A stretch of 64,000 nucleotides of DNA from Curtobacterium sp. MCSS17_007 (GTDB lineage Bacteria; Actinomycetota; Actinomycetes; Actinomycetales; Microbacteriaceae), in assembly GCF_003234175.2 (NCBI RefSeq), contig NZ_CP126257.1, positions 2,294,001 to 2,358,000 of the forward strand, written 5' to 3'. Position 1 is the stretch's first letter; the number at the start of each line of letters is the position of its first letter. Made by a program: the position numbers and the translations under genes. Below, piece after piece: positions 50,037-52,653 of this stretch. The notes under the pieces are model-generated. The model was given only the letters and a program-made list of their open reading frames with translations. It was not told the DNA's origin and did no database searches.

Positions 50037-50504
50037 TCAGCGGCGCTCGCGGAAGAACGCGTCGAGCAGGTCCGCGCAGGCCTGTTCACGCACGCCACCG
50101 ACCACCTCGGACCGGTGCGGGAGCCGACGGTCCCTGGCGATGTCGTAGACGCTGCCGCTCGCCCCGGCCTTCGGGTCCCACGCCCCGAACACGATCCGCG
50201 GCACACGGGCCGCGAGCGCGGCGCCGGCACACATCGGGCAGGGCTCGAGCGTCACGACGAGGGTGTGCTCGGCGAGGTGCCAGTCCCCCGCCACCGCCGC
50301 CGCCGCCCGCAGCGCGAGCACCTCGGCGTGCGCCGTCGGGTCCTGCCGGGCCTCGCGCTCGTTCCGCCCCACCGCGACGACCGCTCCCGTGGCGTCGAGC
50401 ACGACGGCGCCGACCGGGACGTCCCCGGTCGCGAGGCAGGCACGGGCCTCGGCCAGGGCGATGTCCATCGCCGCGGCGAACGGGCGACCTGCTGGGTGTT
50501 CCAC
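50037..50504 (-). CDS. tadA: tRNA-adenosine deaminase
   Basis: A 155-residue cytidine-deaminase-fold enzyme. The zinc ligands and proton shuttle are in [10 protein letters not shown] and [10 protein letters not shown]. It deaminates A34 to inosine in tRNA-Arg(ACG). I take the GTG at 50504, which supplies the first helix expected in TadA (AGGAT lies 6 nt upstream); the ATG at 50468 is the alternative. Confidence 0.95.
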
Positions 50505-50543
50505 GCGTCGATCCTGCCCCATCGGCACGGTACGCTCGATCCC

Positions 50544-51179: not shown

Positions 51180-51502
51180 CGCCCGCTCCCCCGACGCCCC
51201 CGTCGACACGGCTCCGCCCCTCGTGGCGGGCCGGTCGGCGGGGGCGTCTCTCGTCCGCGGCGGTCGCGTCGAGACGCCGGCGTCGCCGCGAGACGCGGCG
51301 GCGTCGTCGAGACGCCGCCGCGTCCGGTGGCGTCTCGCGCGAGCGGCGGCGTCCGGCACGCACGCCGGCGTCTCGCGCACCGCGTCCGCTCCGCACGACG
51401 GCGGACGGGAGGCGCGTGGCGGGGCCGCAGCGCGCCTCCCGTCCGGTCGTCGGTCCGGTCGGCGCACCGTCTGTCCACTCCGGTCACCGTCCGGGCGGAC
51501 GG
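51180..51502. other. Gene-free region with GAGACG/CGTCTC cluster
   Basis: The 359 bp after upp hold no gene before the micro-ORF. At 51245-51374 six copies of GAGACG or its complement CGTCTC occur in 130 bp, mostly inside longer GTCGAGACGCCG or GGCGTCTCGCG blocks. A hairpin of the CGGACGGGAGGC family follows at 51402. Confidence 0.75.
51402..51445. repeat. CGGACGGGAGGC hairpin family, copy after upp
   Basis: A 15-bp perfect inverted repeat (51402-51416 and 51431-51445) with a 14-nt loop, 222 nt past the upp stop and 57 nt before the promoter of the micro-ORF. Confidence 0.9.
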
Positions 51503-51532
51503 TTGACAGCGCCTTGGTATACCGCCGATACT
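51503..51532 (+). promoter_or_regulatory. Strong promoter of a leaderless micro-ORF
   Basis: A perfect TTGACA (51503-51508), an 18-bp spacer, then GATACT (51527-51532). The seventh base after the -10 is the A of an ATG at 51539, so the transcript should start on the start codon. Confidence 0.75.
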
Positions 51533-51538
51533 CGTCCC

Positions 51539-51640
51539 ATGACTGCAACCGTGTCCACCCGAGTCCTCTGCGAGGCCCTGGGGACCGCCGGCATGATCAT
51601 GCCGGCGACGGCGGTCATGCGTTGTCGAATGTGTGCCTGA
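51539..51640 (+). CDS. 33-residue leader-type micro-ORF
   Basis: ATG to TGA, 34 codons, read from the first base of the predicted transcript. The peptide starts MTATVSTRVLCEAL and ends with the Cys-rich MRCRMCA. Codons about 17-23 lie in a near-perfect palindrome that would fold into a 9-bp hairpin just before the Cys codons. The shape is that of an attenuator leader peptide, possibly cysteine-responsive. The next gene on the strand is the orphan winged-helix gene 245 bp on. No family recognised. Confidence 0.5.
   Translation: MTATVSTRVLCEALGTAGMIMPATAVMRCRMCA
51586..51607. repeat. 22-bp perfect palindrome inside the micro-ORF
   Basis: The core GCCGGCATGATCATGCCGGC (51587-51606) is flanked by one more C/G pair. 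In RNA it forms a 9-bp stem with the loop GAUC; in DNA it is an ideal homodimer operator about 50 bp downstream of the transcription start. Confidence 0.9.
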
Positions 51641-51885
51641 TCGGTACCCGTTCCAGCCGGATCCCCCGCGACACCACCCCGGTCGCGCGCGTGTGATCCC
51701 CGGGTGACGCCACCTCGACGACGCGCAGGCACTGCGAGCGCACGAGGCACCGTCCCCCGCACCTCCCGGGAGGCCCCGGTCCACCGCAGGACCGCTGGGC
51801 GACACGGCGATCCGCCGTACCCGGACCGACGCATTCGACACCGCCGCGGTGCACCACACCGCAGCCACCCGCCCGGAGAACCGCC

Positions 51886-52653
51886 ATGTCGCTCACCATC
51901 GCCCAGCCCCGCACCGCCCTCCGCACCGCCGCCGCGTCGACCGACCTCGGGACCGTGACCCCGATCCGTCCGCGCCGGCAGCCGGTCGCCCCGCCGGTCC
52001 CGAGCGGCATCCCGACCAGCCCCGTCGTCGCGCCGCAGCGCAACCGGGCGCTGCCGGAGGGCACCGAGGCCCGCGGGTTCGCGCTCTACGTCGGGATCGA
52101 CGAGGCGGCCGCTGCCGCCGCCGGGACGACCCTCGCCGCGGTCGTCGAGCAGCTCAAGGCCCTCACCGCGCAGCTCGTCCCGTCGTCCGAGACCTACGCC
52201 GCGGTCGCCGTCGCCGCCGAGGGGTCCGGTGGCCGCGACGTCGACGTCGTGCGCCTCGCACTGCAGGACCGATCCGCCGTGGCGGCGCGGAAGCAGGCGG
52301 AGAAGCCCGAGCCCGAGGAGACCGGGGTCGTCATCGACATCTCCCGGAAGCGTGTCACGCTCGACGGCGAGGCCGCTCCCCTGACCTACAAGGAGTTCGA
52401 GCTCCTCCAGTTCCTCGTCCTCCGCGAGGGACAGACCGTCGATCGTGCTGCGATCATCGACGGCCTGTGGTCGGACGGCGAGGACGAGACCCCGAACGAG
52501 CGCACCATCGACGTGCACGTGCGGCGCCTGCGGTCGAAGCTCGGTGCCTTCGAGGAGATCGTCCGGACGGTGCGCGGCGTCGGCTACCGGTTCGACCGCC
52601 ACGCGGACGTCGCGGTGCGCTACGCGTCGACGCCGTCGCCCGACCTCTTCTGA
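51886..52653 (+). CDS. Orphan winged-helix protein (OmpR/PhoB-type DNA-binding domain)
   Basis: A 255-residue protein. The C-terminal domain (about 150-245) is a PhoB-type winged helix: RVTLDGEAAPLTYKEFELLQ, then NERTIDVHVRRLRSKLG and VRGVGYRF. The N-terminal 145 residues are not a receiver domain: no Asp pocket is visible, only a Pro/Ala-rich start and an alpha/beta region (RGFALYVGIDEAAAA, ETYAAVAVAAEG). So it is not a classic response regulator; the signal is unknown. ATG with GGAG upstream. Confidence 0.85.
   Translation: MSLTIAQPRTALRTAAASTDLGTVTPIRPRRQPVAPPVPSGIPTSPVVAPQRNRALPEGTEARGFALYVGIDEAAAAAAGTTLAAVVEQLKALTAQLVPSSETYAAVAVAAEGSGGRDVDVVRLALQDRSAVAARKQAEKPEPEETGVVIDISRKRVTLDGEAAPLTYKEFELLQFLVLREGQTVDRAAIIDGLWSDGEDETPNERTIDVHVRRLRSKLGAFEEIVRTVRGVGYRFDRHADVAVRYASTPSPDLF

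Follow-up and report, generated by a model that had tools for sequence, protein, structure and literature searches.

A leaderless Cys-codon micro-ORF as a candidate attenuator upstream of an orphan winged-helix regulator gene in Microbacteriaceae and a second actinobacterial family

Results

Organization of the leader and its downstream gene

The stretch of Curtobacterium sp. MCSS17_007 DNA that was analysed comprises 64,000 nucleotides and is referred to as the window. Downstream of upp, it carries a leader with a very short open reading frame, followed by the gene of a putative regulator. The following features were recognized:

51503 to 51532, + strand: promoter, TTGACA (51503-51508), an 18-nt spacer and GATACT (51527-51532); promoter scan, conserved in Curtobacterium
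51514 to 51523, + strand: TTGGTATACC inside the promoter spacer, candidate operator; kept in Curtobacterium
51539 to 51640, + strand: leaderless micro-ORF of 33 codons, MTATVSTRVLCEALGTAGMIMPATAVMRCRMCA; read from the sequence, intact in 63 of 64 same-genus loci
51586 to 51607, + strand: hairpin P1, here a perfect 22-bp palindrome, over the codons of the GMIMP segment; predicted fold, palindrome scan, co-changing arms
51614 to 51640, + strand: conserved tail GTC ATG CGT TGT CGA ATG TGT GCC TGA with putative Cys control codons and the invariant CGA-ATG; codon counts across loci
51623 to 51634, + strand: pairing arm TGTCGAATGTGT within the tail, unique in the window; complement at 51829-51840
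51659 to 51699, + strand: post-ORF hairpin, GGATC/GATCC and CGCGAC/GTCGCG; predicted fold, sequence partly kept in 63 same-genus leaders
51829 to 51840, + strand: antitail ACGCATTCGACA, the complement of the tail, 45 nt 5' of the regulator ATG; sequence, predicted fold, word test
51874 to 51879, + strand: probable Shine-Dalgarno (SD) sequence of the regulator, CGGAGA; read from the sequence
51886 to 52653, + strand: regulator of 255 amino acids, with a conserved N-terminal domain and a C-terminal winged helix (PF00486); profile search, structure model

The near-consensus promoter named in the original prediction was the only promoter-like site in the 821 bases scanned (0.0 in shuffles). Six nucleotides separate GATACT from the ATG at 51539, the micro-ORF has no SD sequence, and its peptide ends in the predicted Cys-rich MRCRMCA at the stop at 51640. 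From the promoter position we infer that the transcript would begin at or near this ATG. Such a start is supported by the family-wide comparison, since TTGAC starts 36 or 37 nt 5' of the ATG in 159 of 196 distinct family loci (Curtobacterium counted in) and SD-like 4-mers precede the micro-ORF in only 3 of the 196.

The promoter spacer of the Curtobacterium leaders contains TTGGTATACC in 49 of 64 loci and TGGTATCCCA in 12 of 64. This element, which we take to resemble the operator of some GntR-like regulator, has six matches at four places in the own genome. The three places besides the leader, with genes named by eye, are an inverted pair with a spacer beside an MFS-like gene, the perfect palindrome TTGGTATACCAA 5' of a membrane-protein gene, and a site near a glycosyltransferase-like gene; the spacer element was also noted alongside loci L207, L209, and L212. 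We considered that the regulator may control its own expression through TTGGTATACC; the neighbours of the four genome places look unrelated. Between upp and the promoter (51250-51400), GAGACGCC and GGCGTCTC words are repeated many times on both strands. Adjoining upp, a tadA-like deaminase gene (named by eye) is located at 50037-50540 on the minus strand. Deaminases of this type convert adenosine to inosine in tRNA, which is needed for reading CGA. The position of this gene is probably old synteny, yet curious beside the invariant CGA described below.

The only Pfam match of the regulator is PF00486 (response-regulator winged helix, residues 162-236). No receiver domain was found in the protein, and family and PDB sequence matches were all C-terminal, which confirms the predicted orphan winged-helix protein that is not a sulfur gene. 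The closest PDB relatives, both by sequence and by Foldseek, were the DNA-binding domains of GlnR (8hml, 8hig), which match the C-terminal domain. In contrast to GlnR, the regulator has no detectable receiver domain, and its N-terminal domain, searched alone (pLDDT 81.9), gave no PDB match better than E 6.4. The AlphaFold model of the whole protein had a mean pLDDT of 79.8 and a pTM of 0.51. PADLOC returned only a weak match to a TPR model (E 0.00044), located over the winged helix. Searches of Rfam 15 yielded two chance-like matches for the window leader (E 0.24 and 0.57; snoRNA and miRNA families), far below gathering scores, and none for the leaders of five relatives. No named leader-peptide family of Pfam or NCBIfam matched any of three peptides at E up to 10, a search in which the HMMER filters are weak for queries of 33 amino acids. 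In the open literature searched, no description was found of either the leader or the function of the regulator.

Conservation of the micro-ORF in Curtobacterium and Microbacteriaceae

The regulator protein was matched in all 66 Curtobacterium genomes drawn (E <= 0.001), and identity ranged from 81 to 96% in nine Curtobacterium records. Upstream regions were compared for 64 loci, leaving out G014, where the match lies at the contig start, and G022, whose best E of merely 5.5e-20 is at paralogue level. An ORF of 28-45 codons that opens with ATG and stays in frame up to a terminal C[R/C]MCA was present in 63 of the 64 loci, L032 being the exception. The promoter, the tail, and a segment GACGCATTCGACA hardly vary among these leaders; the front of the ORF is variable, and the peptide has 32-41 amino acids in those Curtobacterium loci whose printed ORF reaches the tail.

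Within Microbacteriaceae, the regulator occurred in 147 of 150 genomes, representing 84 of 85 genera. The exact tail ATGYGNTGYCGNATGTGYGCNTGA (Ala-stop) was found in 41 of 398 family genomes (20 of 85 genera), a low number because the last residue varies, and in none of 274 non-family genomes of the order; a backward control of the pattern gave none among the matches listed. At all 30 of 30 exact-tail loci, 10 of them from the own genus, the regulator followed, with the match beginning 143-376 nt downstream. Conversely, regions upstream of the regulator across the family contained the same ORF with more varied ends, e.g. ...GMMMPGRAVMCCRMCR; no such ORF was found upstream in some loci, for example L125, L127, L142, L166, and L171. 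With a detector that asks for CGN-ATG close to the stop codon and for two Cys among the final ten residues, a matching micro-ORF was found ahead of the regulator at 75 loci of an independent set of 80 named ones (the best 80 of more). The reverse strand gave 0 of 80, and ten shuffles gave 0-1 of 80. The five misses were two Clavibacter loci, one late-starting contig, one MAG, and one Amnibacterium locus. Without the CGN-ATG requirement, a looser detector scored at 74 of 78 loci; the reverse strand gave 21 and the shuffles 8-19. Most of these conservation counts include related loci and are not independent. The 63 Curtobacterium and 75 named loci bear out the expectation, set out with the original prediction, that the reading frame and the Cys tail would be kept.

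A second and possibly a third family

Among the 149 genomes covered by a protein search at the level of the order, 27 had the regulator; 10 belong to the own family, 10 to a second family (f6), 6 to a third (f7), and 1 to f12. The second family is probably Micrococcaceae, as an Arthrobacter plasmid carries a 49%-identical relative of the regulator. All 61 genomes of this family that were searched, in 32 of 32 genera, had the regulator. A short ORF that closes around CGA-ATG was found in 27 of 30 loci, in 26 of these with Cys codons just before; it was absent from L235 (start misplaced in the analysis), L241, and L242. More distant loci of the second family had the ORF in 3 of 20 cases, so that the leader was found in 30 of 50 loci in total. 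These ORFs are often GTG-started, e.g. VNTNSTASAAAATLISRLAGSAMCCCRMHA, and typically end in ...CC(C)RM[Q/H]A; by eye, the peptide fronts of the two families are unlike. In five of six f7 loci (L200, L201, L203, L204, and L205) inspection by eye revealed an ORF starting AATAATGA with Met-X-Cys-Val-Arg near its end, possibly a third version of the leader as far as the sequences indicate.

Codon choice in the tail

The most conserved part of the leader is the tail of the micro-ORF, not the palindrome, and the typical Microbacteriaceae peptide ends in [R/C]-C-R-M-C-[A/R]. With any Arg codon allowed, the tail Arg codon was CGA in all 145 of 145 cores, obtained from 181 sequences; 74 of these cores are from one genus, ten of them repeating a genome, and the cores are therefore not independent. 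With any CGN allowed, it was CGA in 75 of 75 loci of the named set (best 80 of more) and in 27 of 27 loci of the second family. The first Cys codon of the core was TGT in 130 of 145, and the tails of the named set (best 80 of more) contained 149 TGT and 58 TGC codons. For comparison, CGA accounts for 49 of 972 Arg codons and TGT for 3 of 52 Cys codons in the window ORFs, in which Cys and Met make up 0.38% and 1.6% of the residues; this background comes from high-GC3 ORFs picked by composition rather than annotation. With CGA fixed and TGT favoured against a background in which both are rare, the nucleotides are thus conserved beyond the peptide.

The Cys codons are not only kept but also multiplied, from the two non-adjacent codons of the window (C-R-M-C) to CC-R-M-C in most named loci (best 80 of more) and CCC-R-M in many loci of the second family. 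Expansion with Cys or Met reaches CMCMCMCMC, CRMCCCC, CCRMCCC, and CTRMCCC in L130, L129, L147, and L177, from genomes of 1.4-2.2 Mb. This multiplication in small-genome lineages is apparently an independent expansion, which would suit a sensor of cysteine or sulfur amino acids. The loci L130, L129, L147, L161, and L177, all from genomes of this size range, have 50-61% GC compared to 73% here. Conservation of CGA-AUG exceeds even that of the Cys codons, and the signal may therefore not be cysteine alone.

The middle of the ORF often reads ACCTCCTTCGAGG in other genera, where the window has CCTCTGCGAGG. ACCTCCTTCGAGG resembles the anti-SD of 16S rRNA; it could pair with the AAGGA of the regulator or form a small CCTC/GAGG hairpin.

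The palindrome as an RNA hairpin

The 22-bp perfect palindrome matched once in the window (0.00 expected) and, as originally described, is predicted to fold into 9 bp with a 4-nt loop (fold starting at 51540). Its perfection is not conserved: the same site reads ATGATGATG in most relatives and ATGATCATG in the window genome. Thus, where conservation of the palindrome had been proposed as a check, the hairpin was kept and perfect palindromicity was not. At 156 loci with ATGATG, the flanking 6-mers form six of six pairs in 79 and five of six in 42; these counts take the best register, and their rows are not independent of each other. The arm pairs observed included GCCGGC/GCCGGC, GTCGGC/GCCGAC, GCCGAC/GTCGGC, and GCTGGC/CCCAGC. 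The mean folding z of the stretch was -1.42, with z<-1.5 in 41 of 92 distinct loci. As both arms change together and the stretch folds, P1 is, judged from the alignments, most likely an RNA hairpin, and the perfect palindrome is a by-product of the ATC codon of the window genome. The repressor site inside the leader that had also been proposed was rejected on the covariation of the arms: although the palindrome is perfect and unique in the window, a DNA operator is scarcely credible when its symmetry hangs on a single codon and arm changes compensate each other elsewhere.

Pairing between the tail and the downstream leader

The complementarity of TGTCGAATGTGT and ACGCATTCGACA, a feature absent from the original prediction, includes one G-U pair, and the predicted fold of the window leader contains the corresponding 12-pair helix (51623-51634/51829-51840). 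Watson-Crick words of at least 8 nt between tail and leader were counted and compared to shuffles. They were present at 57 of 64 Curtobacterium loci (shuffle mean 3.4, maximum 8 in 40), 15 of 71 other family loci (mean 3.9, maximum 8), and 15 of 26 loci of the second family (mean 0.95, maximum 3); a control with the head of the ORF gave 2 of 71. The antitail is located about 42-57 nt upstream of the regulator in Curtobacterium and the second family, where the complement begins 42-51 nt upstream in 14 of 15 loci. At six family loci, the complement lies directly 5' of the start codon, between SD and ATG (AAGGATTCGACACCATG and alike).

Alignment A2 of the second family comprises 29 leaders, 28 of them distinct. 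Its tail/antitail helix is paired in 95.3% of cells, compared to 19-43% when slid by 1-3 columns. Covariation was limited to one pair (C-G, U-A, U-G) changing on both sides, in 3 cells. Among 500 shuffles, 2 reached the score and cell counts of the helix and 226 the number of covarying pairs and pair types. A duplex-energy test covering the 255 nt downstream gave a weak signal, with a mean z of -0.17 and z<-2 for 9 of 95 tails; two other parts of the ORF, used for comparison, reached z<-2 in 4 and 3 of 95 cases. RNAalifold on 72 sequences of the whole family returned no structure. Of 72 family loci inspected for TTCGAC and CATCAT in the last 60 nt ahead of the regulator, 29 carried neither motif. 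Taken together, the sequence comparisons indicate a real tail/antitail pairing for Curtobacterium and the second family, a likely one for some other genera, and at most a possible one for the rest.

A pairing of the hairpin loop ATGATG with CATCAT before the regulator SD is not claimed. CATCAT is enriched at this position (37 of 83 versus 3.1 in shuffles); the pairing was dropped because CATCAT occurs independently of ATGATG, in 29 of 65 loci with and 4 of 7 without it.

Downstream of the ORF stop, folding in Microbacteriaceae was weaker than in the second family (mean z -0.81 with 29 of 92 below -1.5, compared to -1.44 with 14 of 27). In many second-family loci, the last codon and the stop form the 5' arm of a post-ORF hairpin, whose arms by eye change together.

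Sulfur metabolism of the carriers

The PAPS-reductase domain PF01507 was absent from 16 of 20 hand-picked genomes, the own genome included, and from 13 of 20 in a second set, and all 14 control genomes were positive. Among the genomes in which the leader was seen (10 + 20), it was absent from 22 of 30, two of which are less than 90% complete. The sulfite/nitrite reductase domain PF01077 was absent from the own genome, with 11 of 14 controls positive. No clear association was observed between PAPS reductase and presence of the leader. Many carriers thus seem to do without the usual sulfate-reduction route. As these carriers, including the own genome, lack a detectable PAPS reductase, the leader is not simply a switch of sulfate assimilation; the own genome has no detectable sulfite reductase domain either, and sulfate assimilation is therefore not an obvious target. 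A need for external reduced sulfur would make a Cys signal useful.

Discussion

The original prediction had read the locus as a ribosome-mediated attenuator or Cys-sensing leader, and the comparison supports this reading well: frame, Cys tail, leaderless position, and hairpin are kept, and Cys codons are multiplied. We consider it probable that the micro-ORF acts in cis as a Cys-responsive attenuator that turns the regulator (51886-52653) on when the ribosome slows. According to this model, a 70S ribosome would start on the leaderless AUG and read the micro-ORF, whose tail would have a double role, providing control codons as well as a pairing arm. With plentiful cysteine, the ribosome would finish and leave, the tail would pair with the antitail, and a duplex near or over the ribosome-binding region would keep translation of the regulator low. 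When charged Cys-tRNA is short, the ribosome would sit on the tail, among the probably slow codons TGT and CGA, so that pairing would be blocked and the regulator made. The direction, with stalling as the ON state, is suggested most directly by the genera whose antitail is placed between SD and ATG. It is located farther upstream in Curtobacterium and the second family, for which both translational and transcriptional attenuation are possible.

That the position of the ribosome on the ORF selects either an antiterminator or an early end of transcription, through Rho or at a site lacking a U-run, instead of governing how accessible the start of the regulator is, is an alternative we regard as possible though doubtful. 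It would fit the long leader, which measures 245 nt from the ORF stop to the regulator ATG and mostly about 120-300 nt to the predicted start in relatives, and the hairpins 3' of the ORF, which in the second family overlap the stop codon and co-vary by eye. However, no terminator-like site was found in 51180-52000 by a scan that requires a T-run (0.0 also in shuffles), and an antitail between SD and ATG, as in some genera, suits translational control better.

It is rather unlikely that the nascent peptide, MMMP...VMCCRMC, arrests the ribosome upon a small molecule, metal, oxidant, or antibiotic, the way leaders of certain resistance genes work. Met and Arg are conserved along with Cys in 14 peptides, and a regulator as target recalls whiB7 as presented in PMC13236596. 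Yet the conserved part is the end of the ORF, which leaves little inside the tunnel when the Cys codons are read, the choice of CGA and TGT is constrained beyond the peptide, and the fronts differ between the two families. A functional small Cys-rich protein binding metal or thiol, located upstream of the regulator by happenstance, would explain the strong amino-acid conservation of the tail and the four or more Cys in some lineages; a variable front in a peptide of 20-45 amino acids, the same downstream gene in every exact-tail locus, constrained synonymous positions, and a tail complementary to the downstream leader make it very improbable.

The proposed attenuator resembles several established systems. 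In translational attenuators of the ermC type, a segment of the upstream ORF pairs with the downstream ribosome-binding region, which is freed by a stalled ribosome. The tail of the micro-ORF would likewise pair toward the ribosome-binding region of the regulator, and a stall would free it; the likeness is one of mechanism, and the proposed signal is decoding of Cys instead of a drug. The whiB7/wblC leaders, as treated in PMC13236596, are a further actinobacterial example, in which ribosome stalling on an upstream ORF controls the gene of a transcription factor. The regulator of the window has PF00486 only and is not a WhiB protein, the peptide is Cys-rich, and the simple T-run-dependent scan detected no intrinsic terminator of the whiB7 type.

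Closest in outline are the polycysteine leaderless short ORFs of mycobacteria (Canestrari et al. 2020), as described in PMC4633059, PMC9031893, PMC9094748, and PMC13236596. Leaderless mycobacterial ORFs with contiguous Cys codons act by attenuation according to a review (PMC9031893), translation attenuation is mentioned for Cys genes of M. smegmatis (PMC13236596), and such Cys uORFs had been suggested earlier (PMC4633059). As far as these sources describe them, the mycobacterial ORFs share with the present one that they are leaderless and short, with Cys codons near the C-terminus and a fixed place upstream of a gene; the Cys-responsive attenuation reported there is proposed here from comparison of sequences. 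The present leader differs in its peptide, the invariant CGA-AUG after the Cys codons, the internal arm-changing hairpin (in Microbacteriaceae), the tail doubling as a pairing arm, and the orphan DNA-binding regulator as target. Contiguous Cys codons occur as CC in most named loci (best 80 of more) and as CCC in many of the second family; those of the window are single and separated. The downstream gene encodes the PF00486 regulator, not a protein of cysteine or sulfur metabolism, a feature that is not strictly defining because the mycobacterial set, as given in PMC4633059, also includes hypothetical genes. The peptide family, the fixed CGA-AUG, the regulator as target, and the breadth of distribution appear to be new.

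Tentatively, the data might be read more broadly, as an ancient sensor of cysteine (possibly also methionine) decoding that drives an unstudied global regulator. Two actinobacterial families, many members of which seemingly lack CysH-route sulfate reduction, would then answer a shortage of sulfur amino acids by making the regulator, and CGA-AUG would serve as a slow-decoding step (inosine-adenosine wobble) that sharpens the stall, as well as an antisense arm. If the proposed attenuation holds, a Cys-responsive leader would act on a regulator present in 84 of the 85 Microbacteriaceae genera examined and in all 32 genera of the second family, with the leader there at the 30 of 50 loci noted above. 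It would tie this regulator to amino-acid or thiol status, offering an entry to its regulon, and would carry Cys attenuation beyond the genes of mycobacteria, to a transcription factor elsewhere in the actinobacteria. With its CGA codon fixed, the tail is a clean test case for whether leader peptides are selected for codon identity and not for the amino acid alone.
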